The notes under the pieces: model-generated
What the model saw: only the letters and a program-made list of their open reading frames with translations
Told to the model about the DNA's origin: nothing
Database searches by the model: none
Shown: one piece after another, positions 1-34,353 of the stretch
How the letters are laid out: every line of letters begins with the position of its first letter
Numbering within the stretch: the first letter of the stretch is position 1
DNA from: Blastomyces gilchristii SLH14081
Lineage: Eukaryota; Ascomycota; Eurotiomycetes; Onygenales; Ajellomycetaceae
Direction: 5' to 3'
Assembly: GCF_000003855.2 (NCBI RefSeq)
Contig: NW_003101678.1
Location: 495,493-559,492 of the forward strand
Length of the DNA: 64,000 nucleotides
Position numbers and translations under genes: made by a program

Positions 1-1635
1 TCTCTCACATCTATATTTAGTTTCATTATGTAATGAGTATAAATAACTTTCAGATCATCAAATTCTGCAAGAAGTCAGAGTTTTGATAAAGAAATACACT
101 GAAGATTATAATATCTTACAACTGAAGATTTTATCATTGCATAGTAATATAGACTGCTGTCTATCATGACTTTCATATTATACATGTTATTAATCACAGT
201 AGATATAAGAATTACATTCATTGTTATTTTCTCTTTAAATCATTGTTATCTGATCTCTTCAAGCTTCTGTTTACAAATTTGAACAGAAGCTAATCTTTTC
301 TCTATTTCATCAGAGTATTCTTATAGTTATCTTCTGAATCTTTCTTCACTGCAATGTGATTGATGTGAACAGATGCTGATTCATTCTTCAAGTGAGAAGA
401 TACATAGGCTGATTAGCAGTTGAAAGTAATATGTTCTGATCAGTTACAGTTAATACACACTTTATATTGATATTGATCAGTGACTTCTTCAGAAGTGATC
501 TCAGGGACTTGAAAGTCTGTTTGAACAGTGAAAACTCTTGCTTATATATAGACATTTGAATCTATTCAGTTCATAATATCTGTATCATTGCTGTTCTTCA
601 GTGCAGATATATAAGTCACTGAGATGTAATATCTTCTATCACTGTTCTGTATACTCTTAAGCTTGATAAGATAGTCATTCAATATTCAGAGCTGTGTATA
701 GAAGCCTTCATAAGTCTGGTCTTTGTCTATATTTATAAGAGTCTGTAAGAGTTTGAAAGTCAATGTCTTCTTAAGCATGCTAATCTTTATTTGATTCTCT
801 CAAGATTGATCACCTGCTTCTAGAATCTTGATGTTGAAGTCAGAAATAAATGTTGTAAGAGAAGTAGTTCTCTGTCAGATGCTCTGTAATCAATTTAATA
901 CTTTCTATTGTATAGCAGTGTCTTGGAACAGAATATCAAGATATCTCATAATATTATCAGACATTTGTAACACTGATTCACATGCTTTCATTCATGAGTG
1001 AAATTTCTATTTTATACAATTCTTCAATTATTCATTGATATATCAATCTTAATTAATTAATAAACTGATAGTATCTTCATCTACACTCAGTTTCATGAGC
1101 ATTTCCATTCTTCATGATGAGTAGAGAGTGAGATCAGAAGTATTGAAATATGTAAAAGTATTTAAGCATTCTTTCAGTGTTTTTGTATTTAATTCTGTAG
1201 ATGTTGAAATTGCATGAGTTTCTTATTATGATAATTATTGAATCTCTTCATATTGATGTTATTAAGTTGCATGTATATCAGCTATTTATTGTTATTATAG
1301 TTTCAATATTACTCAGAGTCACTGTGATACTATATCTATGCTCATATTCAGAGGTTCTTTCATATTATTATTAGACATGATTATATTGTTTATCAGATGT
1401 GTGATATCTGTGAAATCTGAAGAAGTGTAATTATATGAATATCTCATACATCTGAGTGTCAGAACTCTCAGGTCTTTTACTGATATTCTCTTATAAGATT
1501 TTACTCTCTTCATAAGATCTTGTTACAGGGTCAGAGTGACTGATAAGCAAGCTTCTATCTGAGAACTCAGTGTTCACTTAACTATTTAACTGTTTCTCTA
1601 TTTCTTACACATTATTATGTGTTTAAATATCTTAA

Positions 1636-1696
1636 TGAATAATTGTCTCTAATAAGAAGATGATATGTGAATAATTGTTTCTAATAAGAAGATGAT
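1636..1696. repeat. 29-bp tandem duplication, two copies
   Basis: Copies at 1636-1664 and 1668-1696 differ by one base (a C/T difference near the middle) and are separated by 3 bp. It lies just outside the left arm of the foldback. The single difference is a transition, consistent with RIP-type decay. Confidence 0.75.
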
Positions 1697-1709
1697 GAAC
1701 ATTTTTCTA

Positions 1710-2537
1710 GTGTAAGAGGTCTACACTGAATAGATCAGTATAATATTGATAGGTCTTATATAACAAAGAGAAAAACATTAGAGAAGAAAAGAAAGAGAAA
1801 GTGTAGAAATCAGCAATTGAAGTGAATATTTATACACATATGTGATAGCATACATGATGAAGCTTTGAGACAGAAGAATCTATACATGTTCATAACAGCT
1901 GAGAATTGATGATTGAGAATGACTGAGAATTGAAGTGTATGTGTTCAAGAGTGAAGTGAAAGAATCTATGAAGTAAAGCAGAAGAATCTATGAAGTGTAA
2001 CAGAATAGTCTATATAATTAATCAGGCGCAGCCTGTCACAGAAGAAGATAATAAGCTTGAGTGAGAGATTAAAGATATTCTTGATAAGAGATCACATAGC
2101 TGCAGTTAATAATATCTTATAAAATAGATCAGCTATAATCAACTGATCTGAACTCTGAGCTTCATGTTATCTGAAACAGTAGTTCTTGACTGATAAGAAC
2201 TGCTTCTGAAAGAAGAAAGCTAATGTAACAGACTGCGCCTGATCAATTATATAGACTATTTCATACACTTCATAGATTTCTATCACCTCATTCTCAATCA
2301 CTGATTCTCAGCTGTCATGAACATGTATATTCTGATCACTGATTCTCAGCTGCTATAAATATATGTATATTCTTCTATTCTGAAGCTTCACTGCATATAT
2401 CATCACATACATGTATAAATATTTACTTTAATCACTGATTCTTGTACTTTCTCTTTCTTTTCTTCTCTAATGTTTTTCTCTTTGTTATATAAGATCTATA
2501 ATATTATACTGATCTATTCGGCGTAGGCCTCTTACAC
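1710..2537. repeat. Large foldback: imperfect inverted repeat, arms of about 315-330 bp
   Basis: The left arm (1710-2040) is the reverse complement, with mismatches and small indels, of the right arm (2224-2537). About 183 bp (2041-2223) separate them. Matching landmarks are the outer ends (gtgtaagagg in both when the right arm is inverted), a purine-rich block around 1765-1800 matching 2447-2482, and inner ends both carrying caggcgcag followed by a ctgt-caca type ending. Most mismatches look like transitions. This resembles a MITE or foldback element, or two inverted copies of one repeat. No coding capacity is visible in the loop. A transcript through it would form a long hairpin. Confidence 0.8.
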
Positions 2538-2880
2538 AAGTTTTCTGTATACATCAGAAATCAACAACAGATTAGCTGTCTATTGAGTGAGCACTCACAT
2601 GCAGTACTGAGATCTGAATGAGGTAGATAATTATCTGAACAAGCTTGTTAAATATCATGCAGTATGTGAGCTGATACATTTGACATCTGATGATGTGAAG
2701 ATCATCTTGAAGATTTGATTTCTAGGCAAATGATTGAGCTTGAATCTGATAATATACACAGGTTCATGTGAACAGAATTCAAAGGGTTCTGAATATGATC
2801 ACTGTCAGCTGTTATTGTGAACCTGTGCTGTGACACTTCTCAGCACGGCCGTAAGTCACTCCTGTCTAGACTGACCATGT

Positions 2881-3541
2881 GACCGTGTCTGAGACCAGGA
2901 TCAGATTTTTTGATAGTCTTATTATCAATTCAACTGATTCCATTACACAGTTTTAACATTAGATAGTAGTCTCATACTGTCTCAGTGAGACTTACTATCT
3001 ACTCTTGTCACATTTTTCAAATGAGATCATGATTTTCATTTCTCAATTTAAATTATTTTTATTACTTTAAATGACTTTAAATCTTATTTAAATATTATCA
3101 AAAAGCATTACTTTTTAAAAAATTAAAAATAGTCTAAAAAAAACCTTAAAATGTCTAAAAATAGTAACTTTATGCCAAGAATGAGACTAAATGAAATTAA
3201 ATGAGATCATTTTCTCATTTTTTTCAAGTTATGATTTCATTTTAAGATCTGATATATAGTCACTTTACATGTTTTTTTGATAGCCAGTCCCAGCGGGATT
3301 CACATCAAGAAATGTATGGGACCAGACCAAATGGAACCAAATGTGAAATTCATGGTCCCGGCGGCCAGTCTACTCCTGCCCTCTTTTGACTCAACTCAGT
3401 GCGGTTACTAAGGCTTTTGATTGATGCAGGTTGAGATAATCAGCGCGCCCCCCCTGCGGCCCCGCTTTCCCGCATCCACCGGCCATCACATGACTCACGG
3501 CGGCAATGTGGCCACGGACACAAGTGGAGGACGGGAAGAGT
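2881..3541. other. Non-coding stretch with a sharp AT-rich to GC-rich change
   Basis: From 2881 to about 3280 the DNA is AT-rich with homopolymer runs. From about 3290 it becomes CG-containing, with a C-run near 3445 and CpG-rich DNA to 3540. No coding frame is evident. The sudden change in CpG content suggests a junction between a heavily mutated sequence and a less mutated one. Confidence 0.5.
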
Positions 3542-3593
3542 GTGAACTACTTTTGTGAACTACTTTTGTGAACTACTTTTGTGAACTACTTTT
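3542..3593. repeat. 13-bp tandem repeat, four perfect units
   Basis: The unit gtgaactactttt occurs four times head to tail with no mismatch, followed by one extra T. It sits in non-coding DNA just after the composition change. Perfect identity suggests a recent slippage expansion. Confidence 0.9.
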
Positions 3594-4309
3594 TGTCGCT
3601 GCAGCATCTTGTGATGTAGATGTATAGATTGTTGATCAACTATCATCTTGGTAATTCTTGACTTCTTCTTTTGTCTAGCTATATCATCTGTTTCTCCAGT
3701 CTGGAGAAAGGTTGCATTGCCGCGAGCTGAGATCAATAAGTGGCACTGCTGTAGGGCTAATGCATCTTGAGAAATCGAATCTGACCTCCGGCCTGGCTAT
3801 TGGTGGCAACTGGGGGCAACACTAGTTTGGACAAATGATGGTGTCTTTTCACTTTGGCTCTAATGTGCCCCACTTGAAGCTGTTGGGAAAATACACGGAA
3901 TCGTGATGCGATGCAAGCCTGTACCCAAAATTAGGATCAGAACTTCTACCAGTGCTTGCATCACAACACTGCTTGCTCACCACATTATTTCTTGCTCTGT
4001 GGTTAAAAACCATGATAGCCTGCAGATTGACTGGTGAAGACTTGATCCATCAGTTGTGCCCGGAAGATGCTCAAGATGGCAGGAAACCAGCACCAGAAAG
4101 AAATTACACAGCAGGCCAAGGTGAGACACTGACCAAGGTTCCAGCATTGCATGAGTTGACAGGTTTAGGTGCCATTAAGCACTCAAAGTCTCACCGCGCA
4201 ACACCATCTGCTGCCTCCAGATCACCAAGTTCAGATGGTGCAGCTTCAACAACATCAGTATATATCAGCTATATGTTCGTTCTGAGAAAGATCTCAGACA
4301 GAGGAGCTT

Positions 4310-4801
4310 GTGAGGAAGTGTAGCAGCCTTGAGGCTACACTCCATGCATACACAAACAGCGATCGAGTGCTCCGGCACCAGCTATGGCTGGAAAACAAAT
4401 CCCATGCTGCCACACGCCACGAGCTGGAGCTGGAGAAACGATTTCAAGGTGATTGCGCCGAGGCCAATGCCAAGCTGCGCGAGGACTTTTCCAAAATGCA
4501 GGAGGCCTATGCCGTAGCACAGCAGGTGTTGGGGATGGAGCAGGAACACCACCGCGCCATGATGGCCGAGCTAGAGAGTGCAGTCCAGTGGTGTCACTGA
4601 GTGGACGCTTTGGTCGATGTGATGCAGCTTCAGGAAGATAGTTGTCTGGGGGTCAGGGACTGATCTCGGCGGATCAGTGATGTTATTCGGGGCATTCAAG
4701 CCAAGATGCACAACGAATATCAAGCGGCTCTCAGGGAGAAGGATGGACGGATCACAGAGCTCCAGAAGGCCGTAGATAATCCCACAAGAGCCAAGGTGTA
4801 A
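4310..4801 (+). pseudogene. Coiled-coil protein fragment, probably broken
   Basis: One frame is open from 4310 to 4600 and reads as a Glu/Gln/Leu-rich alpha-helical segment with heptad character (LELEKRF, NAKLREDFSKMQEAYAVAQQVL, MAELESAV). After a TGA near 4598 a similar helical segment resumes in another frame at about 4680-4801 (QAALREKDGRITELQKAV) and ends at TAA. I read this as one coiled-coil protein interrupted by point mutation or frameshift. A preceding open frame (3952-4323) has no recognisable domain and no ATG at its start. I do not recognise the family. It lies downstream of, and antiparallel to, the DUF3723-like gene. Confidence 0.45.
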
Positions 4802-4920
4802 AGTAGAAGCAAGCACATTTTCCGGCTGAGTATAGCAGCTAAGAATATAAAGAAGATCTTTTCAACCGCCCCCCTTATAGGAGGATTGCGCACAGTTATC
4901 ATTGCTAGATATATGCTTGA

Positions 4921-7900
4921 TCAGAGTTGTTTCTCTAGCTTCCATGTCTTCCCCATCTCATCATACACTACAGTTCTATCTAGGTCAGATGATTGTGAAC
5001 CAAGTGTGAGCATGTCTGTGTTGAATTGCTCTTCACATCCAAATGCAAACAAGGTCTCATCTTGCAAAAGTGAACCAATCTGATTGGGTGGAATGACAGA
5101 CATGCCCCCCCGGGTCACTTCTGCAACTCACTTGTATTTCTCCAGGCTGACATAGTCAAGATAGCGCTCTGCATTTTGAGAGAGCACACATAAGGCATCA
5201 GAATCTGATATGACAAAGATGCACTTATATTGAGGTCCTGACCTTTCTTGACAAAAGAAGGTGTTCACATACTGCTGCGGCTCAACATTAACCCGGACCC
5301 AACAGCATAAATGATCCTGCTTCACAATCTCAAGTGGCTGGCGGGCCACAACACCCTGGCTCACGGTTCCGGATACATTTGCGTTGTCATGGAGTGCTGA
5401 TGTGAAAAGCTGGTCCATGTCTGTGTCAACAGGTGGAGGATTTGCGTCTGCAGCAAGTTCTAATGAGTGAGGGCGGTTCATGTTTATCTTGACAGGGGGT
5501 GCTGATATGGAAGGCTGGTCTATATTTGTGTCAACAGGTGGCGGATTTGTGTCTGCAGCAAGTTCTAATGAGCGAGGGCGGTCCATATTTATCTCAACAG
5601 GGGGTACTGATATAGAAGGCTGGTCCATGTTTGTGTTGATGTGTGCTGGATTTTCAACAAGCAATTGGTCAGAGAAATCAAGTATTGGTTCTGTCTGTGA
5701 CTGGGTCACAGTATGAGCTGGCGGTATTGGTGGGTTTGGCGGCTGTAGAGGATTCATTTGATCTCTTGTTTCCACATTCCACTCTGCTGGTTGCGGGCTT
5801 GATGCACTCAGACACCCTGCTTCAGTGAAAGGCGGAAAAAAGGCAAGGAAAATATCTCGCTTGACCGCAAAGGAAGTGAGCCACTCAGCCGGCTCGTACG
5901 GAGGAGGGGAGTAGATGTTGTCAAGATATAGATACTTCTGGTCTGAAAAGAATGAGTTTCCATCGGTCATTCCACAGCAGGAGCGGACGGACCATTCTCC
6001 CAAATCCTCATCTGTGGTCAATAGGGGCCGGGCGATCGGACGGGCATCCAGGGCCACCGGGGCCGGGACGCCGCCCTGCAGTCTCGGGACCAGGAACCCA
6101 ACCGACCTGGCCAGCTCAGAAAAACGGCCCCAGAGCACTTGCGAATCAGGCTGTCTTGTTCTCGGTGGAACTTTGTGCATCCCAATGGGCTGGAAGTTTG
6201 GGACAAGGCCAAAGAAGTCACGCATCCCGGCAAGAAATACCTGCCTGTAAGCCGACCAGAAGCCATACTCCACAGGCATGCCGGCCGCCAGACGGTAACT
6301 GTTCTCCGAGGTCTGGATGCGGACATCATTATCGCGTGGAGAAGAGTAGCACCGCCGTAGGCCCTTCTCGATGGTACCTTTCCACGACCTCGGCATCAGC
6401 CGTCTCATGAGTTTTAAAACAGGCTCCAGATATTTGACATCCTGATGAAATGTGTAGAGGGACGGAATGATATGTGGGATCTGCATCACTTTCAGACGAA
6501 GGACCTCTCGCTCCTGGGGACATGTCACCGCCGCATATGCTGTACCATCCTCAAAAACTTCTGTAATGNNNNNNNNNNNNNNNNNNNNNNNNNNNNNNNN
6601 NNNNNNNNNNNNNNNNNNNNNNNNNNNNNNNNNNNNNNNNNNNNNNNNNNNNNNNNNNNNNNNNNNNNAAAAAAAAAAAAAATAGTGTCGGGCATGGCGC
6701 GGGGTGGTGCAATCTTTTTCAGTAATCGTGGTAGGATCATCCAAGCACGCGTGTGCGAGAGACCTGCAAGACCTGCACGGTGTCGACCTTCCAATATCTT
6801 CGTGACTGCCACCCGTCATGTGGTAGCATACGGCTCGAATGAGGGTTCGATAAACTAGCCAGGATCTGCTCACTCATAAAATGTCAAAAGAAACCAAGTT
6901 GGAGTGTGCTGAGACACCTACCTCCGGGAGCCCCGCAGCGGGAGAAGCTGATGAAGGTTGACCCAGGTTGACCACAGTCCCGGGAACGGGATCAGCGCGT
7001 CAAGGGCGACCCGGAGCAGGCGATTGAGCTGCGGATCGATCGACCGGGCGATGCGTGGGCCCGAACTTTGGCCCGGGGGGCAGAGGCCATCCAGCTGCCA
7101 GAAATCACGCTGGTTGCCTGGCCGCCACATCGAGATCCACTTGCCTACTGCGGCCTTGTCTCCTGTTCGCTGGTAGTGACGCACGTTCCGATATATCTCT
7201 CCACTGATGACCTCAGTGCAGTCTTCATGATGCTCCCGACAGAGTCTCCACGCCTCATCCGAGAGGCGCGACGCGTTGTGAAACTCAACCACCCACCATC
7301 AATCTTTGACTGGAAGCCACTCGGTCGCGGCAGCATGACGTACCCGGCCGCGGAGACAGGGAATCCGAACCCCAGGCGGCAGTCGAAGGGGGATGATATC
7401 CCCAGGGAGAGACTGCAAGCCATTAAACTGCAAAATTTGCCAGAAGAATTCCAGCATCACAGCAGCCAGGATCCAGAAGTCCAGATTGAAGCGCTGGCAT
7501 CTGTCTACATTGAACCTAGCAACGAGGCACTTCACAGCCGTTATTTTGATCTCTCAAGCCCCAATCTCACTAGGGTCCCCAAACTCCAGGTGGTCCAGAT
7601 CTATCTTTGCACGGCCCAGGTGGATTTGATGCAAAGTCTCTTTGAGTGCAAGATCAGAATCAGATTCTAGCTCGATAGCCATCTTAAGATCTCTGTGATG
7701 CTGGTCAAGGCTAAAATGCGATGGTTGCAGTAGGATCAAAGATCCAGAAAGATGTGTATCGGGCGTATATCTGTGGGGGGTGCCTTGGATTTGGTTGTTC
7801 TCTAGTGTTTCCACTTTTAGAACAGAATCAGGATGTAGCCGCCGACCATAGATATGGACGTACGCCACGACTTTTGCCAAAAGGCCATCTTTCTTTTTGA

Positions 7901-7946
7901 TTCTCAGCACATAGAGCATGGCGGGCCATAAATACGCCGTCCTCAC
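4921..7946 (-). pseudogene. DUF3723-type protein, Starship-cargo family, broken
   Basis: Successive minus-strand segments align in order with what I know of fungal DUF3723 proteins. These are an N-terminal segment (7946-7557, LDHLEFGDPSEIGA), then a CQRFN...GVRIPCLRGRVRHAAA block (7535-7302), a WWVVEFHNASRLSDEA block with IYRNVRHYQRTGD and ALIPFPGLWSTW (7298-6919), and ILEGR followed by IIPSLYTFHQDVKYLEPVLKLMRRL (about 6800-6440). A less conserved Pro-rich C-terminal half with two near-duplicate segments around 5470-5640 follows. A likely last intron begins at 5128 (GTGAGT) and a final exon runs to 4921. The first three blocks share one frame and are broken only by TGA at 7554-7556 and at 7299-7301; Arg (CGA) is the expected residue at each, so both fit C-to-T mutation. 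A probable intron starts at about 6918 (GTAGGT). A 100-N assembly gap splits the middle. The function of DUF3723 is unknown; it is recurrent accessory cargo of Starship transposons. Confidence 0.78.
6569..6668. other. Assembly gap (100 Ns)
   Basis: Exactly 100 N characters, the conventional length for a gap of unknown size, followed at 6669 by a run of A. The gap falls inside the DUF3723-like gene, so the true distance and frame across it are unknown. Confidence 0.99.
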
Positions 7947-8250
7947 GGTCTGGGAGAGGAAACATTCAACGCGACCTCAAGTCAGGATGAGCAGCAACAC
8001 AAGTTTTGAATTCATGGTTCATTGTCCAGCTCCTCATCAGGGAATTGCTAGCTCAAAGTCGGTTCTGGTTAGACACTTCCAGCTCAAATGAATGCTCTCA
8101 GAGCAAGAGAGTGATCGCTCAAAGCTTCGCTGCATGATTGAAGTGAGGTCTCAGCTGAGCTTCCCATTGCTGACTGTGATGCCCACTGTGGCCATTCATC
8201 TAAAGACAGAGGTTGTGAACCCTCAGGATTGATATCAGCTATGTATCAAG
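7947..8250. other. Intergenic DNA, no gene seen
   Basis: This separates the divergent DUF3723-like gene (minus) and the kinase-like gene (plus) and presumably held both promoters. No coding frame or structural RNA is evident. Confidence 0.5.
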
Positions 8251-8900
8251 TGAAAAAATGACACTGGGAAAGATGAGACTGCTGGGACCATTGTGCATGC
8301 CAAGAAGAGCATCTTTGATAAGAGACTTGTGAAAGAGATCAAAGTTCACAGCAAGGAGTGGCTGTTGAGGATCAAGCTGGCCGCTCGCAAGAATATTGTC
8401 AGTCTGCATGAGGCTCTCTATCACGACGGCGCCATCTTTCTCTATTACGAGGTTTTGAATGTGTCTCTTGTCCAGGTATTCACAACACTCTGTGGACTGC
8501 TTTGATATTATGAGGTGGCAGCATTCTGCAAAGAGATTCTTGATGGCCTGGACTACATTTACAATCATCTCCAGCTCACGCATGGTGTGCTTGGTGCTGA
8601 GAGTGTTCTTCTGGCGCCGGGGAAAGGGGTGGTAAAGATTGGTGAGTTCCCTAGAAAACATCCACCTGCTCTTGAGGTTAACAGCTGGTCAGCGGACATT
8701 GGCACAGCAATGCTGAGAAAGAAAGACGAAAAAGCAGCACAAGAGGATATACGCTCACTGGGTACAATGATAATTGAGAGCTTGAAACCGTGTACAGCGC
8801 TGTTCAAGTGTGACATTCTCACAGACAAGAAATGAAATGCGGATCTCCAGGAGTTTCAGATGCTCATTCATACAAAACAGGCAGCAGAGCTTCTCTGAGT
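8251..8900 (+). pseudogene. Protein-kinase-like (pseudokinase-type) gene fragment
   Basis: One frame from 8254 carries kinase-fold landmarks: a beta3-like VHAKK, an alphaC/beta4 stretch KNIVSLHEALYHDGAIFLYYE, and an alphaE-to-catalytic-loop stretch FCKEILDGLDYIYNHLQLTHG. VLLAPGKGVVKIGEF then stands where a DFG motif would be, and a C-lobe EDIRSLGTMIIE follows. An in-frame TGA at 8503-8505 breaks it. The catalytic loop reads HGVLGAES instead of HRDLKxxN and no DFG is visible, so even the unbroken ancestor was probably catalytically divergent. The frame ends near 8832 and recognisable sequence fades after 8880. It is plausible mobile-element cargo; the biological role is unknown. Confidence 0.6.
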
Positions 8901-10679
8901 AAGTAGTCTCAACTTGCTGGCTTAATAATGCAACTGACATCAAAGAAAGCATGATTTCCTGCAATGATTCCCTGGGCCAGAGTGTCTCATTCCCTACATA
9001 AGAGTAGCCTGGGAGACAACTCTAAAGAAGGTAGAGGTCCTGAGGGAGTAGTGATCTGTACATCATAGAATGAATGCTTTTGTATTTGTTCAGGAATCAA
9101 GCTATTGATGTATTTGATGTGATTGAATTCACTGAGATTCATGGAACTTTGTACTTTTGTATGTATCTTCAACGCGCTCGCAGGCTTCAGAGACTAGTTC
9201 TAATCTGGAAGTTGTTGTTGAAGTCAAAATACTGAGATAGGTGTTACAGTTCTTGTGAACATTAAGTTCCCAACCTTCTGCTCTCTATTCTGTTCCACAC
9301 CATCAAGATTCATCTGCTGCTGGCATTTCTTAGGGTCCTCAGCTACCTTTGTCAGCTCTTCTTGAGGATAAGGATTTGGCAAGCACTATTCAACTTTAGC
9401 CCTGATTTTCAAAAGCTCTTCAAGGTTGAGCTGCTTTGATCTGTAGGGTTAATTTTTCAGTTGGATTCTAATATGCAGGTGCTAAAGGTTGGAAGGACTA
9501 GAATGTGAAGAATAAAGCAGTAAAGAAGTGTTTCTGATGTGAGTTATGACTAGCTATGAACCTGTCTAGCTATGAATCTTTCAAATTTATCTCTTGAATT
9601 CAAGAACTTATGAATGTATCACTCAATCAGCTGGATTCTGCACTGATGTTCAGTACTGACAGTAAAGAGATTGTAAAACGCTTGTGTCGAGGTTTTGATT
9701 CCAGCTCAGACTCTTTAGATTCCTTATTATGATTGCTTCTCTTGTGTGCAAAGTCCTCCAGGGTAGTAAATTCAGTTTCAGAATAATGCTCTTTCTTTTG
9801 ACTGGTTAGATCTCTTCTGATGACAGGGACATTCTAGCACTCATCACTTCTTGTCTTGTTGAAGGCCATGATTCTGACCAGTGGCTACTGTAGGTAAAGA
9901 ATTTGCCTGTGATTGTGATCAATGTTGATTTCCTGTCTTATAGAGGGCTCATTTTGCTTGTTGAAACTGTTCATGATCAGCTTTTACTCACTTTTTTGAA
10001 TCAATGTTTCACACACAGCATTTGTTCACTTGTCTTCAGCACTGGTCTTCAGCCATTGTGATTGTGATGTGGATCAATGTATTAAAAAGGCTGATTCTGA
10101 TTTCATAGCTTTTGCTTGCTAGACTATGCTCTTCAGTGGCATTTATATCTTCTTTTGCCTGATGACAAGAACTCTTCTACATGATCTGATGATATTTTTA
10201 GACACAGATGAAACAAGAATTGCTGTTTCAAGATCTAGAAATAGTACTGAATCTTGCTGGATATTTTTGTCAGTGAACTTGTTGAGTGCATTCATTCTGA
10301 CTTGTTGTGACATCTCACTACATCATGGTTCTGCAATCCATGGCCTCTATGACCTATTTTTAACATTTCAGAATTGAGGCCATGAGTTTGAAATTCGTGG
10401 CCTTAATGCATTGTTTCTTATACACTCTGACTGTCTGTTGCTGGCCTTCCAGTCAACTTCATCATTTTGTTACTGTCTTGTCCCTGGCTGGCCAGGGAAG
10501 CACTCAGTCATGGATATCCTCACCATCTATGCCTGTACTGTCACTGATCTTGTGGTTCTTCTGCTCTTTCATTGCCATCTTTGATGGGGCCTCTGCAGCA
10601 TCTTCAATGAGGAGTTCATGTGAATGTGTTTTCAGTGAAGGATGCGGCTCTATCTGCTCTGTTGTCAAAGGTTGTTTGA
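8901..10679. other. Degenerate AT-rich DNA, no recognisable gene
   Basis: CpG is scarce, TpG/CpA are common and stops are frequent in every frame. Hydrophobic open fragments at 10126-10377 and 10382-10680 could be the eroded first membrane segments of the ferric reductase that follows, but I cannot align them with confidence. Confidence 0.5.
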
Positions 10680-12201
10680 ACTCATTACCTGTACCAGGAT
10701 GTTTCTACATCTTCTTCATCTGGGAGGCACGCTTGCCTGCAATGCGTGGGCGTCCGCAGTGCCCGGGAGGCCAGCGCGAGAGTGGGCTCGCTTGCCCTAC
10801 TTCACTTAGTCTCGCTCTACCTGACCCGCCAGTTCAGCTTTGCTGCTGACCTGTTTGGGGTCTCTTTGTGAACATATCAGCTTCTGCACCAGGCAATCGG
10901 CCTGATGGCTGTGCTTCAGACTGCTGTACATGTGGCCACTGCGCTGCTTCAGATGGCCTTTAGCCTCAGTGACAGGCCTTTGCACTATGGATTTATAGGC
11001 AGCATCATGCTGGCGGCAGTGCTTGTGGTTGTGCTACTGTGGGTCTGTACCTGGTCGCATGAGCTCTATGTTCACTGCCACTTCTTTCTGAGTGTTGCTG
11101 CCCTGGTCATGGTGTGGATGCATCTGAAGTGGCCATGCACTCTTCACAGGATTTGTCTGTTTACGGCAGCAATTCTTCCGGGCCTTACTTCTGCTGTTCA
11201 TATTGTCTGGGTTGCATTCTGCAATCTCTGTGCCCACTGGTCACTTCCTGTCACCCATGTGGTGAAGAAGGCGGGTGTGGTTGAGCTGACCTTCCGCCCA
11301 TCGCGGCCATGGAAGGTATGCACCGGCCAGTACATATATCTGATGGTCCCAGGTCTTGGCTTCTGGGTGGTCACGCAGGCCCATCTGTTCTACATTGTCT
11401 GGACGGAAGATGGGCCTGATGGCGAAGCTGTCTTGGTCACTGTTATTGTGAGAGTGAGGACTGGCTTTACACAGGCCTTATTTTTGACTCCTCACTGTCA
11501 CCTGCGCCTCATCGTGGATGGCCTGTATGGCAGCCTGAAGCGCAAGCAACTTCTGAAGGCAGCATGGCTCTATGATGCTGTTATGCTCATCGCGACAGAC
11601 ATTGGTATTGCTGGCCAACTTCTCTATGCAAAGGACCTCCTCCGCTGCTTCATCACGGAGGAAAATGACATGAATACATGGGGAGGAGGCATCCGTCGAC
11701 ATCGCATCAATATAGTGTGGGAGATGAAAGAGGAGTGTAAGTTGACTGAAGCTACCATGATGTGTGTTGCCTAACAGTGCCATAAAGCCCATAACAGTTA
11801 AATTTCAGACCGGATCAGCCAGTTACTGGCAGAAGATAGCAATTCTCTGATAAGTCATCTACTCTCTATGATGAATCATTGCTAATTGTCTCTGTAGATT
11901 CTGCACTATACTCTATATATCATTCACTGCTCTGATGGCAATGATGATGCAACTGAAGATGGGGGCTGTGATGCATTTAATTATAGAAAGATGAATGTGA
12001 AGAATGTCCTTGCAAAAGAACTAGATGAATGGCTAAGAAAAGTGCTTATGATTGATAAGTTAATAGAACTTCTCTGATGTCTTTTATATTGGTTTCTCAC
12101 TCTTATCAGTGTCTGCTATCTCAAATGCCTGTGATGAAGCTTGTGAGTTTGTTCTCCAACACAATGACAGGCTTGAATTTCAGGAGCTTGAGTTTCAATC
12201 A
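10680..12201 (+). pseudogene. Ferric reductase (FRE family), broken
   Basis: From about 10740 one frame reads as a fungal ferric reductase core: REASARVGSLALL, FAADLFGVSL-stop-TYQLLHQAIGLMAVLQTAVH, and WSHELYVHCHFFLSVAALVMVWMHL with membrane-segment histidines. The FAD-binding segment follows (PSRPWKVCTGQYIYLMVPGLGFW, then QAHLFYIVWTED where HPF is usual), then VDGLYGS in place of the usual EGPYG. The NADPH-binding half is eroded but traceable past the stop at 11772: LLAEDS near 11830, DGNDDATEDGG near 11930, VKNVLAKEL near 12000, and FVLQHNDRLEFQELEFQ near 12150-12198. The TGA at 10869-10871 is where Arg (CGA) is expected. The family reduces extracellular Fe(III) at the plasma membrane with NADPH, FAD and heme. 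FRE genes are named recurrent Starship cargo. This copy is non-functional as read. Confidence 0.8.
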
Positions 12202-12776: not shown

Positions 12777-13661
12777 TCAAAGCACTAAAATCATACTAAA
12801 CACAAAGACAACAAGTAGCATCAGATGTGGAAAAACAGCCTGGCTTTCATTGCCAGTAAATGGAACAGCCCGAGGCATAGACACTTCTGATCTTCTTGTG
12901 GTTGAGTGTCAAGTGCTGCTGATGCTGCTGCTTGCCCAACTCTCATAGAATCCTGTTGGCATTGCCATTGCTGTTGTTATGAAGCCTGTTGAAGCTAAGA
13001 AATTGCTGGCTGTCATAGTTGAAAAGCCAGTTTCACAGTATTCAGTTATGAGGCCCGCTGATGCTGGGAAATTGATGACTGTCATGACTGGAAAGCTAGT
13101 TTCTAGAACAGAGTTTGAGGTTGTAGTTTCATGCTTCTCTTTCACATTTGCCAGGAATTGCTCCATCTGATCACCAGGGTTGAGAGCAAATACCATGCCT
13201 GCATGGCAGTGAGAGGTTGGGTGAATCTGTCGACAAAAGAATCACTGGGAATTCAGAGAGTTGACAGTGAATGACATTAATAGGCCTGAGCGATTTGAGG
13301 GATTGAATCGGGTAAAGCCAGAATCAAATTGCTGCAACGGTGTGCATGGAGATTGAAGGCTTGACTGTGTCAAAGTGTGGTTTGACTGGTAGAATTCAAA
13401 GATCATCAGATCACCGATGTTGATGTTGAGATGGTTCGGTTCAAATTCAATTCCATCATGAACACTCACATTGACTTTGTGGGTAGTATGTGGGGGTTTT
13501 GAAGCATCAATGAAGACTGACTGCTCTAGCCTGTCTGCTTGTTAGCTCGGAGGCATTAACTGAGGGGTTGAATTGACATACTCCATCTGAAGAGCAAGGG
13601 TAGAGCTGATGTTAAGCAAGCTGAATAGAGCAAGAGCTGTGAGCATTTTGCAGTGACTCAT
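12777..13661 (-). pseudogene. Secreted cupredoxin-domain, GPI-tail serine-rich-type protein, broken
   Basis: A single 295-codon frame runs from an ATG at 13661-13659 to TGA at 12779-12777 with three internal stops and no frameshift. It begins with a signal-peptide-like segment (KMLTALALFSLLNISSTLAL). A cupredoxin domain follows: FEPNHLNINIGDLMIFEFY, NHTLTQSSLQSPC, FDSGF, then FFCRQ and SHCHAGMVFALNP with the Cys/His/Met copper-ligand layout. A Ser/Thr-rich stalk and a hydrophobic C-terminal tail (LMLLVVFVFSMILVL) typical of GPI-anchored proteins come last. The stops are TAA at 13542-13544 (CAA expected), TGA at 13242-13244 (the Trp of WFxCRQ expected, TGG) and TGA at 12909-12911. All three fit RIP-type transitions. 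Such proteins are extracellular in fungi; copper binding in this copy is inferred. Confidence 0.78.
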
Positions 13662-14061
13662 CTGATCTCAAGAATCTTTTGATAATCAAGATGGTTTGAT
13701 GAATTCATTTATCATCTTCAATCATCTCACTTTTTAACACAATGATATCTCTTGTCAGTATTGTGGCCAGTGGCCATGGTTTAACAACTACAATGAAAGG
13801 TGGCTGTTGGCCATGAATTATTATCATGGCATCATCGCAAATCTCGTGGCCCCCTTTTTTAATATAAATTGATGTTAAGACATCACTCTCAACAGGCTTT
13901 TATCATACACAATCAATTACTCAAAAATCAGTTGATCTGATTCTGCCATTGCTTATCTGAATCACACTGCTCAAATTTGAATCCAAGCATCTTTATACCT
14001 GAACTTGTTAAGATACTTCGCTGGTCGAAACTATCATCTCTTTTGCAAGAAGCTCCCAGTC
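13662..14061. other. Divergent intergenic region
   Basis: AT-rich DNA lies between the minus-strand cupredoxin remnant and the plus-strand RING gene, presumably carrying both promoters. No gene is seen. Confidence 0.5.
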
Positions 14062-16200
14062 ATGCCTTCGAATTCGTCCAAGGGAAAGGCTCCTGAGCTT
14101 AACCTATCCACCTCACCTCCACTTTCTCCTCTGACTGAGAGATCAGAGAGCCCAGAAAACCCTTTTCCTGAAGGAACTTTTCAGGCAAATTCTTCTGCTG
14201 CAGGCCAGGACCTCACGGAAAGATTGGCGGCCTTGAAGCAAACTCCAGATCCCAGAGTTCCTCCTGGGAACACAAATTCTTCTGTTGCTGGTTCATCCTC
14301 ATCTCAAACATCTGCAACGGCAAACCAGAATTCAGCGCCCGGAGGTATTCCTGAAGATGGGGATACAAACGAGGAGGAGTGGAATGATGACATGCTCGAT
14401 GATATAATACCTGACGAAGAGATTGACAATGATGACTCTCTAACAGAAGAAGAGAAAGAAGAAAAGAAGAAACTTTCTCGGAGAGCTGAAGCCCTTTTCG
14501 AATCAGATACTCGTGACAAGAGGGCGGACAAGGATTTCCTTCCAGGATTGAATGTTTCCTACTTTGACCGAATTCACATTGCCAACTGCATGTACCGTGC
14601 TGATGAGAATGACTACTATCAACTTCTTGGGCTCCCTCACGACGCGACAGAAGAAATGGCGGCTTGGAGCATCAAGAAACTTGACATGATATTGGACGTT
14701 CATACCTGCTCCAATGAAGCTGAATTTAGGGTTGTTGCAAAGGCCAAAGAGAGTAAGTTTCTCCCATCATCCATGCGAGTCTTTGCTAACATATAATGTG
14801 GCTAGAGTTGGCAACCATTACAGCCAAGGTCATCGAAACCAGAGCGGGCATTGCAAATGAGCTTGAAAGAGTGCAGATACAACACCTGGGAGAGCCATTG
14901 GTGAAAGCGCATCGAGATGCACATATGAAGGCGACCACTCCCTTAAAAAGACTTTATACTGCATTCCAGCGTGGTGAAATGATCATAGGTGGTGTTCACA
15001 ATCTAGAAAAGCCAAGCACAATGGTTCTTGCGCAACTGGACGCTATCGAGAGAATCAACCAATCTCTGACGCAATGGAACAGTGAACGAGGCTTGACCTC
15101 GACTTTTGGAACGATTGAAATCTCGAAACTACAGGCTGTCTGGAAACGTGTGAAGGAAGGCGGGTCTACAGATAACATACAGCTCCCCAATACATATCCT
15201 TTAGGCTGGACGAAGCTACCTCCGCAAGCAGAATACACATATGCTGACGATGCCGTTGAGAAGTATTGGATACCGGCCTGGAACCATGTCACAGCAGCTG
15301 CTCAGAATCTTTGGAGAGCTTACCGTGATAATGGGGATGTTGATGCAGCCCGGAGAGAACTGGAGACCAAGTGTTCCGATACATGGCCTGAAATTCAGAG
15401 ATTGAATAAGGAGAACAAACAGCTTCTCTATGCTCATGGACTGGATTCCCAAGTCATTGATATGATATACCTGAGGCTATTCACTGCATACACGCAAGGT
15501 GACCGCGTCGCTTATGACAATCTCAAGAGAGTTCAGGAGAATTGGCTGGAGTCCAACGGCTTGGAACCAGTATGGTGTCCTGATTATCCTGAAGTGCCAT
15601 ATCAGCAACCAAACCAGAACCCTCCACCTCCTGAAAACCAGAGCCTTCCACCTCCTGAAAACCACCCCTCACCTCCGGGAAACCAGAACCCTTCACCCCC
15701 CGAAAACCAGAACTCTTCACCTCCCGAAAACCAGAGCCTTCCACCTCCCGAAAACCAGAACCCCTCGCCTCCCGAAAACCACCCCTCACCTCTGGGAAAC
15801 CAGGCCCCCCAACCTCCTCGAGACCAGACTCCCCCACCTCCCAGAGACCAGACTCCCCCACCTCCCGGAGACCAGACTCCCCAACCTCCTGGAGACCAGA
15901 TTCCTTCACCTCCTGGAAACCAGACCTTCTCACCTCCCAGAGACCAGAATCCTCCAGGCCTCAGAGACAGAACACCTCCGCCTCATGGTTGCCCTGTATG
16001 CATGTCAGGTTTGAATGGAACCCGACGTGCAAGATGCAGGCAATGCTGGCATGTAATGCACACAGACTGTCTAGAGCAGTGGTCTCAGTGAAGTAGTCAG
16101 AGTGGTCATATGCAAGATGCACACTGCCCACACTGGTGAGTTGAACAATCTTGTATTGAAACAGCTTTGCTAACTGATCTGCATAGTTGTGCCACCCAGG
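14062..16200 (+). pseudogene. Proline-repeat RING-H2-type protein with a premature stop
   Basis: Exon 1 runs from ATG 14062 to 14752. An intron at 14753-14805 has GTAAGT, a GCTAAC branch and TAG. Exon 2 is open to TGA at 16089-16091. The protein has a disordered Ser/Pro N-terminus, an acidic DDMLDDIIPDEEID-type region, an alpha-helical middle of about 350 residues that I do not recognise, a Pro-rich repeat array, and a C-terminal RING-H2 start (CPVCM, CRQCWHVMHTDCLEQW). Past the TGA the same frame supplies the last RING ligands (CPH plus Cys). That Cys codon would be completed across an intron from 16135 (GTGAGT) to a CATAG acceptor near 16190. The stop stands where Arg (CGA) is likely, so one C-to-T change probably truncated a complete RING-H2. 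RING-H2 proteins are usually E3 ubiquitin ligases; that role here is inferred. Downstream exons are eroded. Confidence 0.65.
15607..15980. repeat. About 15-unit 24-bp coding minisatellite
   Basis: About fifteen imperfect units, mostly of 24 bp (a few of 21), encode variants of ENQNPSPP, GDQTPQPP and RDQTPPPP inside the RING-protein gene. Early units carry EN, middle and late ones GN, RD or GD. This shows two or more rounds of expansion. The reading frame is preserved throughout. Confidence 0.85.
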
Positions 16201-17201
16201 GGTATAATCTCATTGAACTGCTGGTTCCAACTCAATCATCATGAAATGGCCGGAGGGGTCAGAAGATCACTATTCATTCATGTAGAGTGACTTGAAATAT
16301 TCAACCTGGATATACAGCAGCAGGAGAAAAAATCATCTGGATGCAGATGTACAGAAATAACAGTCATGCTGTGGTTGAAACTGGAGATGGTGGCCATGTG
16401 CTTCACACACAGTCAGAAGCCGGAGGGCGAACAGTTCTTGAGGCAGCAGAGAGAGTAGAAACCCCAAAGATGAGTGGCCCTAATGAGTGAAAGCAGTTGA
16501 AGGGACAGATTGAAAACATGAGAGAATACAGTGTCAAAGTTGTGGCTGTTGAAGAATGGGACAAATTCTCAAAAGCATTGCCTTTTGTTGTTTGTGTCTT
16601 CTTTCATCACTTGAAGGGGGTTTACACAGAGATTTGTGAGTCTCACTCTAACTTGAAACTGCTTGTGAGACAGAGGGCTGGAGAGCAGATGCTTGCTGAA
16701 GCCATGACCCCTGAGGGCTCAGATGTCACAGATGTCGAGGAGGCACTTGAAGATTTGCTTGGGATTTCTCACCTGGATAGACAGAGATTCCAAGCAGAAG
16801 AACTTCATTGAAGGGCTGAAATGTTAGAGATGAAGGTGGAACAGGAACAGTCATGTTTGACAATACCAGAAGACTGAGTGGAACTCAATCATCATTGAAT
16901 TGCTTATCAGATTATATTTGGCTTCTTGAGCTTGTGTCTTATGACTAATCTGGGTTGATGAAACCATCTATTCATTCCTTTAGTTAGTTTCTTACACTGT
17001 TGTCTTGGAGTTTTGCATCTCATTAATCTTAATATTTTAAATAAATCTATCTCTTCTTTCTCCGCAATATTTTGCTGCATCTTAAACTTCATCTTGTGAT
17101 GTACATTACCCTATAAGAGGGATGATGGTATTCACATAACTGCATGAGACTTGTTGATAGATAGAAAGCTGGTGCTTTGATTGAGCCAGTGTATTCTCTA
17201 T
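16201..17201. other. Degenerate tract with one open fragment
   Basis: A plus-strand fragment at 16497-16811 (about 104 codons, Glu/Leu-rich, alpha-helical, ending in AEELH) could be an eroded downstream exon of the preceding RING gene or a separate gene. I do not recognise it. The rest, especially 16860-17190, is AT-rich and stop-rich. Confidence 0.4.
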
Positions 17202-17805
17202 CTAGTAACTCTTGATATAACCAGTGATATTCTGGCGACATGACCCACAGGTCATTGCATCAGAAGAAAGGCATTGTGAGCAAAACCTATGTCCACATAG
17301 AAGGGTTTTCCATTCCAGCGGGATAGTGTAACATATTGAACATTGACATCGATGCTCCAGCTCGCGGATTTTGGCCTCAAGCTCGCTGATCTGCTCATCT
17401 TTCCTAATCATTTCCACAAGCAGGTGTTGCACTTTTTCTTCCGGATTTTTCATCTTTGCATGCTCTGCTTCCCAAACCTCGTGGATTTTCTGGTTTGCTG
17501 TTTCCTATCCCAATATCAGCACAGAAAGATTTCTGCCAAGAGAAGAGGCTTACCAAAACCATGTCCAAGCTGGATATTTTATGTTTCTTCCGTGGCTGCG
17601 ACGTTTCGGATGCTTCCAAGGATACTAGGTTGTCAAATAAAGCCTCGTGCGCTGGATAGCTGTCATCTGTGCAGGGTCTCTTCTCCCGTGGCTCTCGTGG
17701 CTCTCGTGGCAGGGACGGCGGCTCATCCACCTCTGTATCTGAACTGTCGATGATGATGATGTCGCGGAGTTTGTTGTGGGGAAGGTCAGGTTCAGCTGAA
17801 GCCAT
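17202..17805 (-). CDS. Small coiled-coil C3HC4 RING-finger protein, two exons
   Basis: Exon 1 (17805-17554) starts at the first ATG. The intron (17553-17505, 49 nt) has GTAAGC, a CTGAT-like branch and ATAG. Exon 2 (17504-17202) ends in TGA. The product is about 184 residues, with a disordered N-terminus bearing an acidic IIIIDSSDTEVDE stretch, PREPREPRE, and a basic QPRKKHK that could be a nuclear signal. A heptad-type coiled coil (RKDEQISELEAKIRELEH) precedes a complete C3HC4 RING: CSIC, CGHRFCSQC and CGSC. IIIIDSSDTE resembles a SUMO-interacting motif, so a SUMO-targeted ubiquitin ligase is one possibility; E3 activity is inferred from the family. Unlike its neighbours the frame is uninterrupted and splice signals are intact, so this may be the only functional gene in the element block. 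Confidence 0.75.
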
Positions 17806-18497
17806 GATTGAATGATCGATGTGCACGGAGATACTGCTGGCTTGAAAAGGCTCATACAGCAAGCAGACAATTCCAGATCAGAAGTCACGCGAGCAAAAAA
17901 AAAAAAAAAAAGAATGATGGGGAACTCCAGGAGGGAACATGCTCTTTTATGTTCACTCTGTCGCCTTGGACTATGTATGCCCCTCGATAGGTCTTAATCT
18001 TGCAGTGGTAGGATGGGAAGTGGAAAAGGAATTGAAAGAAAGATGGATTCAAGGCGGGAGGGAGCCGATATATATACCGGGGCGGGGAGGGCGGGGAAGG
18101 CAGCGACGCAGCTTCAGCTGTCCCATTCTTCAAGAGTTCTTATTGGTAGTCAATGAAACCTGGCCATGCAGAAATGGTAGGCCCAAGCTGTGCTGGGAAG
18201 TTGTCATAGGCCTAGTTAGGACAAGGAGCTCTTTGCATATCATTGTGATCTCAGCTGTGGAGTTATCTTTGCGAGTTCACAAATGTCTAAAATTTTTTGA
18301 TGTCTTTCTAGCATACAAAGTTAGCAAGAATATAATAAGAAGCTGCATGCTATATTGTCATGATCTTTGCAAACTGATAGGAAAATTATTTATGAAGAAC
18401 ACATAAGCAGTTGAGGATCAATGTTCTTCAGTGAGATTTTGTTCACAGAGAGTTTCAACCACTTCCCAGACTCAAGTCCATCTCCTGCTGGCTGCTC
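17806..18497. other. Intergenic region upstream of the RING gene
   Basis: Contains an A-run at about 17895-17911 and a TATA-like tatatata next to a G-rich block at 18068-18105 that may belong to a promoter. The rest is non-coding. Open frames here have no protein character. Confidence 0.4.
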
Positions 18498-21118
18498 TCA
18501 TTTTAACTTCTCTCGTTTTTGATGTTGAAGCCGTTTAGTGCGCTGCGAGCGTTTGTCGAGATCATAGGCATGTGTCATCCTGGCGTGGTGTAGGAAAGAC
18601 AACTCATCTGGGAAAGGTTGTGGCTCACAACCGTCACAGGTGCATGGTAACTGACCAGAAGATTTTGCGAAATGTGTTTGCTGAAGATGCCGCCTCACTG
18701 AAGCAATGTCCCGGAATTTATGCGACGCTTTACCCTGCTGTGCCATCGACTTTCCATAACAAAGAATGCAATATTGAGTGGGCACCTCGAGAAGTCCAGA
18801 TTGCGTGGTTAAGCTGATATTGTCATGGGATCCTCTGCTGTCTGGGTCCTAGTTGAATCTCTTTCCCCTTTGCGAAGGCTCGGAGAGCCTGCAGAGAGCT
18901 ATAAGATCCTCGGTAACTTGAATTTGTCTCTTGCGCAGCTGCTCACCGTCAAAGGTTTCTGATTCAGGACCATAGAATGAATCAATAAGTCGTTTTCGTT
19001 CACTTGAAAAGTGCTTCGGAACTGGCTCTTCACTCTCATCAACATGAGAATCATCATACTCCTCTCCCGCAAGTAATCGTAAAATCTCCTTGTCCACCTC
19101 TTCTGCACCAATATTAAGAAAAAAGTCATCTCTCTCCTTCTTGTGTAACTGCCTCGTGAGAGTGTTTCTCTTGCTAGGCAGTTCTTTTTTGACTGAAAGA
19201 TACTGCTGATAAAGATCTGGGCAGATGCTTTGCCCTCTTTGCACTTTTCCAGCCACTGATATTATTTGTTCCTTTAGTGCTCCTTGTCGCTGTCTCAGTC
19301 TCAGGATCGTAGGATGCTCGCGTACTGCTCTTTTCACGGTGTCCGAAGCTCTGCTGCCAGGTGCTCGTGTGTCCCGGTGTCTCATCTGGCTCATGGCTAG
19401 CTCAAGCACTTCGTTGTGGTGGGGTCGTAAGAGGACAAAAAATTGCATATCCCGCTTTACATTGTGATCGTGATAATTTTTTTCGTAAACATTTGAACCG
19501 TTATGACCAAGAATTCTTTTCCGCTCCGCCTTGGTGAACTTATCTAGAACCAATAAGTAAATATTGGCTGCCTAATGGAGTAAAAAGACGTACCGTTTGC
19601 TGTATTAGCCACCCAGCGTCTATCAGCATAGAAGGACATGTCCATGAAGCCCGCATCCCGAACAAGTGCTGTGTTGGCTTTATTGGCCACGCTGTACGAC
19701 ATTGATTGCTTTTCATCAATGGAGTGCAAGCCGGCATCGTCCGTTTTCATACATCGAAGCACAGGTTTGTTTAGCACCTTGTCCTTCCATCGAAATGGGA
19801 GAGATCCCCTATGGCGGGGGACTCTCAAGCTCCAGAACAGTTTCGGCGTGAGATGCTCATTTTGAAAGGCCTCATCTCGAAATGCCAGCGCTACTATCTG
19901 GGCGATGGGGCAGTATACCAGCTTGTAATCGCCATGAACAAAGAATCTAGTCCTATAAAATGACACATTGGTACTTGGTTCCTTCTCAACATATTGTAGG
20001 ATGTAGTCTTACCCCTCTGCGCCCTCCGGCTTGCCTTTCAAGTTTCGAAAATCGATGATTGCACACGGGATACTCCCATTGGGTATAGGTAGAAGAAATA
20101 GTTCGATGTCTTTCCACAATACAGTTTTTGGCAGACTGTTCAAAGATGTATATCGCGGAAGATCACTCTTGAATCCATCGGAGGCCGCCTTGGGTTTCGC
20201 TGTCTGAGGGTCCTTTGGTAAAATCTCACCGGGTCGTGAGCCAGTTATTGCTAGCCACATTTTCAGGGTTGCAAACTGAACCTGATCGTTGCCGTGAGGG
20301 AAATGGGTGGAGAACATCCAATGATGGCGCATGAGCACAGAGAAGACTACAACATCTGTGGTAGGCTTGTCTTTGCTTTATTGCTCACTTCGCCCTTGCG
20401 TTCGACCTGGAATTCATGTTTGAACCACTTTCCTTAAGATTAGTATCCCATTCAAATGGAAGGAAAGTAGAGTACTCAACATAGAGATTACATACCCTCT
20501 CCATTTGCTGATAAACCTCATTATCGAATCCTTTCTGCTTAAAGAAGGAGTAATATTGGCAGAGCCACTTCCAATATGTTTTATATGTCTCCAATTCTTT
20601 GTATTGGTCTAAACCCTCTATGACTCATCTCTGAAGCCAGTCAAAGAAAGTCTGATAGACTGCGATTTCTGCTCAGAGAAGATACTTCTCGTAATCCTCC
20701 TTGACATGTTCACAGTACCTGTTTCAGTACATTAGCATGTTGTAAAGGTCTGGCATAAAGACAGGAAACCAACCGACGCCAAGAACGCTCAATCACTCCT
20801 ATATTGATCCATGTTGTTTCTTTGTATTGTGGTGAAAGCCATCCACGCTGACGATAGTGTACCAGCCGGCGCCTTGTCTCTTCAGAGAAGACAGTCTCCC
20901 AGGCCTTTTCATCTAATTGCGCATATGCTGCACGTTTTCCCACCATGATGTATAGTACAGCATGCGCTAGGAAATAAGATACATAAGCAATTTAACCACA
21001 CGGAAAAGAAGGCAGAAGGCATAGATATCCATAATGAGAGACATTCTTCTAGGGTATCCATTTCTCTATATTTATCACGGAACAGTCTTAGGGCATGCCT
21101 CTTGGTACCGAGTGACAT
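18498..21118 (-). pseudogene. DUF3435-type tyrosine recombinase (Starship captain-like), mutated
   Basis: Read leftward, an N-terminal helical region (20946-20713, then about 20703-20388) is followed by HWMFSTHFPHGND and WLAITGSRPGE, the catalytic-Arg box, at about 20320-20230. An intron (20012-19953) leads to RFFVHGDYKLVYCPIAQIVALAFRDEAF. After PFRWKDKVLNKPVLR and RRWVANTAN, a 50-nt intron (19593-19544) joins DKFTKAERKRILGH with VYEKNYHDH, the His/Tyr box. The C-terminus has two zinc-finger-like motifs (CILC...HLQQTH; CTCDGC...HHARMTH), as DUF3435 proteins often do. In-frame stops are TGA at 20673-20675 and 20625-20627 (Arg expected) and TAG at 18849-18851 (Gln expected), all C-to-T compatible. 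The N-terminal start is uncertain: 21118 and 20946 are candidates, with a TTTCCTAG acceptor between them. Frame changes near 20705 and 20380 are introns or indels. The family excises and inserts Starship elements. Confidence 0.8.
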
Positions 21119-22641
21119 GGACCGCTAAAATGCCACGAAAAACGGGCCAAAAACCACGGGAATCCGTGGCCACTTCGCAATTACGCCGCTTCTTGAAGAT
21201 AATCTGACCACCACAGCCTGAGATGGAGGGACTGATGATATGTACAGTACATGTACATGTACATCGCTTTGCTGGCGAAATACACCCGTTTGGACCCTTT
21301 TTTAATTCTTTTTTTCTAATAAAAGAATGCATGCTTGGACTCCAGCCTCCCCCACCCTCTGGAGGTAAAATCCGCGGATATTTTGTGCTGGCCCCGTAGG
21401 ACCGACCAATCGCGAAGATATTTCCCCGATGAATGCAGTTGGCTAGTCTAGCTTCGGCAAGATTGAGATCTATCCTATAGAGATGATAATAATGCAATAT
21501 CAAGGTCGGAAGGAAGCAATCTTCCTGGCGAACTTGTTCGTTAGACTCGGGCTTCTAGTTGAATAACTATGGTGAGCTGAATGTCTAGTCAGATCAACCC
21601 CCATACATATAAGTTACACTATTATTCTCGTTTACTCAAAACCCTCAATACTCAACACACCTATTGAAGATAAGAATTATAATAATAATGGTCAACTCAA
21701 AGATACTATTTTTTTTTATTTTTTTTTAATATATACAGCATAGTCAGTACTCTGTATTGTGTTATGAAGAAATCAGTCCATCATTAGTGCAGGTGTACTC
21801 CGTATTTAGATGAGATTGACAAGAGGCCCTGGTTATAGCCATGATCAGGGTTGATACGTCCGACTAGTTTCCCCCGTCAGATTCCAAATGCTTGCTCCAT
21901 GGTCAAGTTATGAAAGAAGAAGTTCACCGCATGCCCTCGCTCCAATCCTACCTCTTATTATTGCTCCCCCCCTAATAACTCTCTCTTCGCCCTACCACCC
22001 GCCCCGGGGCTGGCTAACACCGTTAGCCTTCCTTGGGCTCTATCTTTCCTGCGCTAACGCCAAACTTACATACGCCGCGGAGTAACTAAGTTAGTTAAAG
22101 AGATTTGGAGAAAAGCAAGCAGATTTTCCATGTTATTTCATTATTTGAACTGTGTTTTCCCCCTCAGCGGCCTATGCGTGCGTGCTGCGCCTGTTATCCT
22201 GGGACTCCACGATAACTCCCCGAGTTAATAATAGATATTTCACCCCCTTGGAAGCGGGCTCAGGGTCATGCTGAGGGCGGCTGCTTACCAGCCCTGGTGG
22301 AATGAGCAAAATGCATTCCTTCGCTTCTGATTCTCGATTTAGCAACAAGCCCTAGCGAATATGTTATTTTCAGCCTCCCTAATTTGCTGTACGGGGTATT
22401 GGGAGCTAGTTGCTACGCTGTATGTGGGCAGGGCTGACACTTTGAATCCTCTCCTATCTCCAGCCCTTCATTAGGGTCGACATGAAAATTCATATAAGAT
22501 CCTGCCGTGCCCCTATGTTCGTCGTAGTATCATTCAACACAACAGATCCAAACCCATAGCTAAAGGATCAATACACCCTTCCCGCATCTTTTTCTGCATC
22601 TTTTTTTCTTTTTTATATTCAGTTTCCTTTCGGTCTTTCCA
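21119..22641. other. Putative element boundary and subtilase promoter region
   Basis: This lies between the start of the captain-like gene (left, minus) and the subtilase (right, plus). It includes a self-complementary tgtaca-rich cluster at 21241-21264 and a T-run at 21711-21728. Base composition turns normal by about 21.9 kb. If the Starship reading is right, the element's 5' end should lie here. I cannot fix the edge without the distal end or an empty site. 22400-22641 probably holds the subtilase promoter and 5' UTR, with a CT-rich tract just before the ATG. Confidence 0.5.

Positions 22642-34315: not shown

Positions 34316-34353
<38 letters not shown>

Follow-up and report, generated by a model that had tools for sequence, protein, structure and literature searches.

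A probable derelict Starship, worn by RIP-type mutation and buried among other transposons, in Blastomyces gilchristii SLH14081

The stretch analyzed here (the window) comprises 64,000 nucleotides of contig NW_003101678.1 (C5:495493-559492) in the assembly of Blastomyces gilchristii SLH14081 (74.8 Mb, 75 contigs). Its left part is very probably the front end of a derelict Starship, a giant transposon that carries a DUF3435 tyrosine recombinase (the captain), worn by repeat-induced point mutation (RIP) and buried among other transposons. An earlier note on this DNA, written from the letters and predicted open reading frames (ORFs), had proposed a Starship remnant with an inward-facing captain and typical cargo, and much of that proposal was borne out.

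The outermost gene at the right edge of the element is, as had been claimed, a DUF3435 recombinase on the minus strand, transcribed leftward into the element. The profile PF11917 matched it above the cut-off in two pieces (E 2.6e-30 and 1.5e-23 among the window proteins) and at E 4.6e-32 in the genome-wide search, which places it in DUF3435. When a read-through model was used as query, PF11917 was carried by all 25 proteins listed at E <= 0.001. The best relatives among those listed are Penicillium and Aspergillus proteins (43% identity over ~100% of the length), and others come from Emmonsiellopsis (43%, 76% covered) and Histoplasma (39%, 66% covered); solved structures gave no match to the captain. 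An alignment of the captain to 10 of these 25 relatives shows R in SRPGE, K in RNLKG and R in YADRRW, as well as H in ILGH (Q in most of the aligned relatives) and Y in NYHDH. These are taken to be the tyrosine-recombinase residues. The earlier note had set the gene at 18498-21118; its locus and family stand, while our model starts at 20946. In this model three stops (two TGA and one TAG) and a frame change interrupt the frame, and homology to the relatives continues beyond the in-frame TAG. A TAA considered as a fourth stop was rejected, as it falls in a predicted intron and is absent from the relatives. Because the captain frame is broken, the word remnant is correct, and the element would no longer be mobile by its own captain, which bears on activity and not on descent.

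The arrangement of the window is the rule in this genome, where captains are outermost and inward-facing, with DUF3723 on their 3' side. Genome-wide, 88 PF11917 matches were grouped into 40 captain loci, and 27 matches of PF12520 (DUF3723) into 14 loci, including that of the window. A captain is present within 35 kb of ten of these 14 (9/13 without the window locus), and in 10/10 the DUF3723 gene is found 3' of that captain (binomial 5e-12); the loci are partly non-independent because two elements on contig C2 are copies of each other. Also near a captain, and all on its 3' side, are two of the five relatives of the ferric-reductase-like (FRE) ORF of the window and two of the three relatives of another ORF, at C5:462302-463210. 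The DUF3723 gene that had been read to the left of the window captain is secure (144.5 bits, cut-off 22, E 5.7e-42; 6933-7298 alone, E 4.2e-13), and is crossed by a 100-N assembly gap at 6569-6668.

The two C2 elements begin at one common, sharp 5' end (C2:5111849 and C2:318579), although the host DNA beside them differs, and both carry a captain, DUF3723, FRE and the ORF shared with C5:452-469 kb. Aligned, they are 91.5% identical over 4.15 kb and 92.2% identical over 8.5 kb further in, with an internal rearrangement between them, and a third copy, on C24, starts within about 2 bases of their 5' end. At least one lineage may have inserted three times, each time with this 5' end, and these three captain copies, together with the constant side of DUF3723, uphold the reading of an inward-facing Starship captain. 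The C2 elements were not followed as far as their 3' end, as homology continues at C2:5169.3 and 260.5 kb, >57 kb from the 5' end.

The C2 copies differ at 1017 of 12,673 aligned bases. Of these mismatches, 1016 are transitions and one is a transversion, a bias such as RIP leaves and unlike ordinary mutation. The C-to-T change per site was 0.35 at CpG, 0.34 at CpC, 0.15 at CpA and 0.04 at CpT. TGA accounts for 93 of the 126 in-frame stops in the DUF3723 matches genome-wide, some of which introns may contribute. In the window, composition was compared in bins of 500 bp (29 of cargo, at 3.4-18.4 kb, 82 of host and 5 of captain). The claim that the block differs from the host genes holds for dinucleotides, with observed/expected (o/e) CpG of 0.40 in cargo vs 0.87 in host (p 6e-12) and TpG of 1.38 vs 1.07 (p 4e-12), but not for GC (0.464 vs 0.472, p 0.35). 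The captain lies between cargo and host (CpG o/e 0.70, p 0.04; TpG o/e 1.19, p 0.008).

These data bear on the possibility that the captain is a lone DUF3435 gene beside unrelated repeat-associated genes and was never part of a cargo-carrying element. Such a gene would agree with the ends being unresolved here and with the presence of DUF3723 within 35 kb of at most 10 of the 40 captain loci, but not with the nearby DUF3723 always being on the captain's 3' side, with the same accessory set in both C2 elements, or with a CpG/TpG shift common to cargo and captain, and we regard it as unlikely.

Gene order in relatives shows the whole block to be an addition between the same host genes. A TatD-family host gene (C5:318798-320036) lies 13 kb to the left of the block and the deaminase gene 21 kb to the right, 217.8 kb apart, of which about 21.7 kb is N. 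In four of the five relatives, the orthologues are 6-11 locus tags apart (EMCG_04903/04909, AJ78_00177/00188, AJ79_01480/01488 and FQN50_005239/005248), on contigs of equal listed size for each pair (109, 236, 287 and 245 kb), from which, with the tags, we infer a shared contig and order. The Emmonsia crescens contig is itself shorter than the distance in B. gilchristii; the fifth pair, from Emergomyces africanus, is split between two contigs and is uninformative. Given this contrast, the block is derived and not ancestral, in agreement with the earlier note, as shown by an absence of the whole block and not by a base-resolved empty site; gene order does not locate the Starship ends.

The same comparison makes it very unlikely that the cargo consists of old host genes trapped in an expanding GC-poor isochore, with the captain alone being mobile. 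Large GC-poor, gypsy-rich tracts are described for Blastomyces genomes in the available part of PMC4595289, and the block is mostly AT-rich repeat, as such trapping would have it; against it are the closeness of the flanking genes in four relatives (6-11 tags, on one contig), the host-like GC but low CpG of the cargo, and the recurrence of DUF3723 and FRE copies beside other captains. Another tyrosine-recombinase transposon, such as a Crypton, which also uses this enzyme (PMC12134995, in the part available), is highly improbable given PF11917 over the length of the protein and in 25/25 listed relatives, and the Starship-type neighbours.

Several observations weigh against the Starship reading. 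For the window element, neither a target duplication nor a terminal repeat was detected, and no 3' end was located. Over a 240-aa piece, the captain shares no more than 24-33% identity with four other captains in this genome, and four of the 14 DUF3723 loci and three of the five non-window FRE matches lie away from any captain. Among the cargo, the FRE gene and one RING gene score under their own Pfam cut-offs. The ferric reductase that had been named is thus below the threshold by itself, but its relatives at C4:4445799 (36%) and C2:5146536 (39%) both exceed the FAD_binding_8 cut-off; a second C2 relative (37%) is absent from the 7 FAD_binding_8 matches. Similarly, one of the two RING genes proposed is above its cut-off and the other just under. 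The kinase and cupredoxin readings were not confirmed: the former gave only the weak Pkinase match in Table 1, with none for 8254-8502, and the latter no meaningful Pfam match and, for the one piece tried, no useful hit to a solved structure. The other points concern the second island, to the left of the window. A patatin-like (PLP) protein read by eye at C5:462-464 kb matched no Pfam family and is absent from the 6 PF01734 matches of the genome, and the view that both islands were one element is drawn from gene content, in a gene order unlike that of the C2 elements.

This second island (C5:452-469 kb) lies ~30 kb to the left of the window cargo, and its GC is host-like and its CpG reduced like that of the cargo. 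Three relatives of its ORF C5:462302-463210 occur in the genome, two at the C2 captain elements (39% and 36%) and one on C13 (31%). From this gene content, the island and the window cargo may once have been one element. A MYB-like ORF read by eye at C5:468035-468484 was discarded, with neither family support nor a relative in the genome. At the edge of the island (C5:468959-469580), a ~620-bp unit, rich in AT and enclosed by 42-nt inverted repeats of 88% complementarity, resembles a small inverted-repeat element. The DNA around the island, C5:333-451 and 469-498.9 kb, is AT-rich and almost without CpG, and is made of 5-8-kb and ~0.5-kb repeats that recur within the block. From their form, and from the gypsy-rich GC-poor tracts in the part of PMC4595289 available, these repeats are probably of the long terminal repeat (LTR) type. 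The first ~3372 bases of the window belong to this LTR-type material, with a repeat common to the rest of the block and a CpG o/e of 0.0 over the first 2 kb, and are not cargo. Just inside the cargo edge, at 3541-3593, there is a perfect 13-bp tandem repeat in 4 copies.

Two measures suggest where the 5' end of the element lies. TpG o/e drops from >1.15 to <=1.0 near 21.0 kb, and the C2 copy has ~850 bp from its sharp 5' end to the PF11917 match, a spacing that would put the end at ~21.2 kb here. Between the left border of the block (C5:332.3-334.65 kb) and window 20.9-22.5 kb, there is no direct shared word of >=11 bases, 10-mers are at chance level, and inverted ends gave only words of chance length. 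TACGGAGT, considered as a common Starship end, occurs 4 times on one strand in the host DNA of window 22-64 kb, and is therefore not diagnostic. No RNA family was matched at window 18-24 kb.

A GC-poor isochore edge coincides with the captain 5' end in the window and in both C2 elements. As a general rule for captains this was not supported: probes of 120 bp, set 3 kb upstream and 12 kb downstream for 23 captains from the 40 loci, gave 9 edges, 5 reverse cases and 9 with GC-poor DNA to either side (p 0.42; by Wilcoxon test, p 0.19). Excluded in advance were the window, both C2 elements, the pair at C2:1659/1661 kb and short fragments, and three all-N downstream probes were scored as GC-poor, without which the counts are 8, 5 and 7 of 20. 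The pair left out (C2:1659295-1663233) consists of two DUF3435 genes facing each other on opposite strands within 4 kb. Elsewhere, a DUF3435 gene at C18:825096-826503, whose four matches hold few in-frame stops (2 TGA, both in one match) and whose surroundings are host-like in composition, is perhaps a younger or solo copy, and C13:1491-1558 kb, with FRE-like, DUF3723 and the shared ORF within 67 kb and no DUF3435 match within 35 kb, is perhaps a Starship minus its captain.

Table 1. Positions of the features in the window
Feature	Position	Strand	Basis or remark
AT-rich repeat block bordering the cargo	1-3372		Self-comparison of C5:295-559 kb; ~506-bp repeat at 2867-3372
DUF3723 gene, in pieces	5131-6591 + 6933-7499	-	PF12520
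Kinase-like fragment, unconfirmed	8254-8832	+	Pkinase E 0.098 for 8506-8832
Ferric-reductase-like ORF (FRE accessory family)	10872-11774	+	FAD_binding_8 19.2 bits, cut-off 22
Cupredoxin-like ORFs, unconfirmed	12912-13541	-	By eye only
RING-like gene	13981-16091	+	zf-RING_2 24.2 bits for 14790-16091, cut-off 27.3; Pro-rich tandem repeat 15611-15956
RING-finger gene	17202-17877	-	zf-C3HC4 27.1 bits for 17202-17504, cut-off 21
Captain, DUF3435 tyrosine recombinase pseudogene	18498-20946	-	PF11917; relatives; alignment; broken frame
Captain C-terminal tail, zinc-finger-like			By-eye reading
Likely 5' end of the element	21000-21300		TpG fall and C2 spacing
Host genes	From 22.6 kb rightward		Host-like composition from ~21.0 kb
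OTT_1508-like deaminase family (PF14441) host gene	42303-43818		Many fungal relatives

Among the host genes, the protein of 42604-43818 is 100% identical to BDBG_03235 of the same strain, and two large divergent chitin-synthase-like genes, one with a myosin-like head, were read by eye at 26414-40985.

The history of the Starship may be pictured as follows. The captain would have cut and pasted the element between a thiamine-pyrophosphate (TPP)-enzyme gene on the left and a subtilisin-like gene on the right, and RIP-type C-to-T mutation would then have disabled it. LTR-type retroelements, for which the interval later became a landing ground, would have inserted into and beside it and split the cargo between window 3.4-21 kb and C5:452-469 kb. 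The window captain's low identity to the others makes the C2 elements cousins and not copies of it, and window 18400-22600 is single copy at the DNA level. A single-copy element with RIP-type mutation would imply either that sister copies have since been lost or that RIP spread from neighbouring repeats. That several Blastomyces Starship lineages copied recently and were then silenced by RIP is a tentative suggestion.

Within the literature searched, a Starship in Blastomyces is a new host record, and the founding Starship surveys may well list these captains. The word Starship is absent from the available text of two Blastomyces genome papers (PMC4595289, PMC11540331), as is DUF3435 from the one of them where it was looked for, and the available text of PMC11392411 has Starship in its reference list only. 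An Emmonsia species is enriched in DUF3435 as well as in DUF3723 (PMC5374152, in the part available). The present analysis places ~40 DUF3435 loci and a Starship in a human-pathogenic fungus, and the captain elements of Blastomyces record the copying of giant transposons and their RIP in a tractable form, which can be traced across existing isolate assemblies.

The relatives of the captain in Penicillium oxalicum, Aspergillus calidoustus and Emmonsiellopsis (43% identity) carry PF11917 and the same residues save H (mostly Q), and are annotated only as hypothetical or FluG-domain proteins. Compared with Starships such as Sanctuary, as described in the available part of PMC12506042, the window element differs in its broken captain, in having no resolved ends or direct repeats, in a cargo split by LTR-type repeats and in unconfirmed PLP and NLR genes, no search specific to NLR having been made; it is alike in its outermost, inward-facing DUF3435 recombinase, in its DUF3723 and probable FRE genes and in being missing, as a block, from the gene order of relatives. 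Similar in condition are the derelict, RIP-mutated Starships of Spiromastigoides and P. variotii (PMC11623301, in the part available). Those were assigned to a named family and are described with intact ends, in which they differ from the window element; they share with it RIP-type decay and immobility and, in the case of Spiromastigoides, the order Onygenales.
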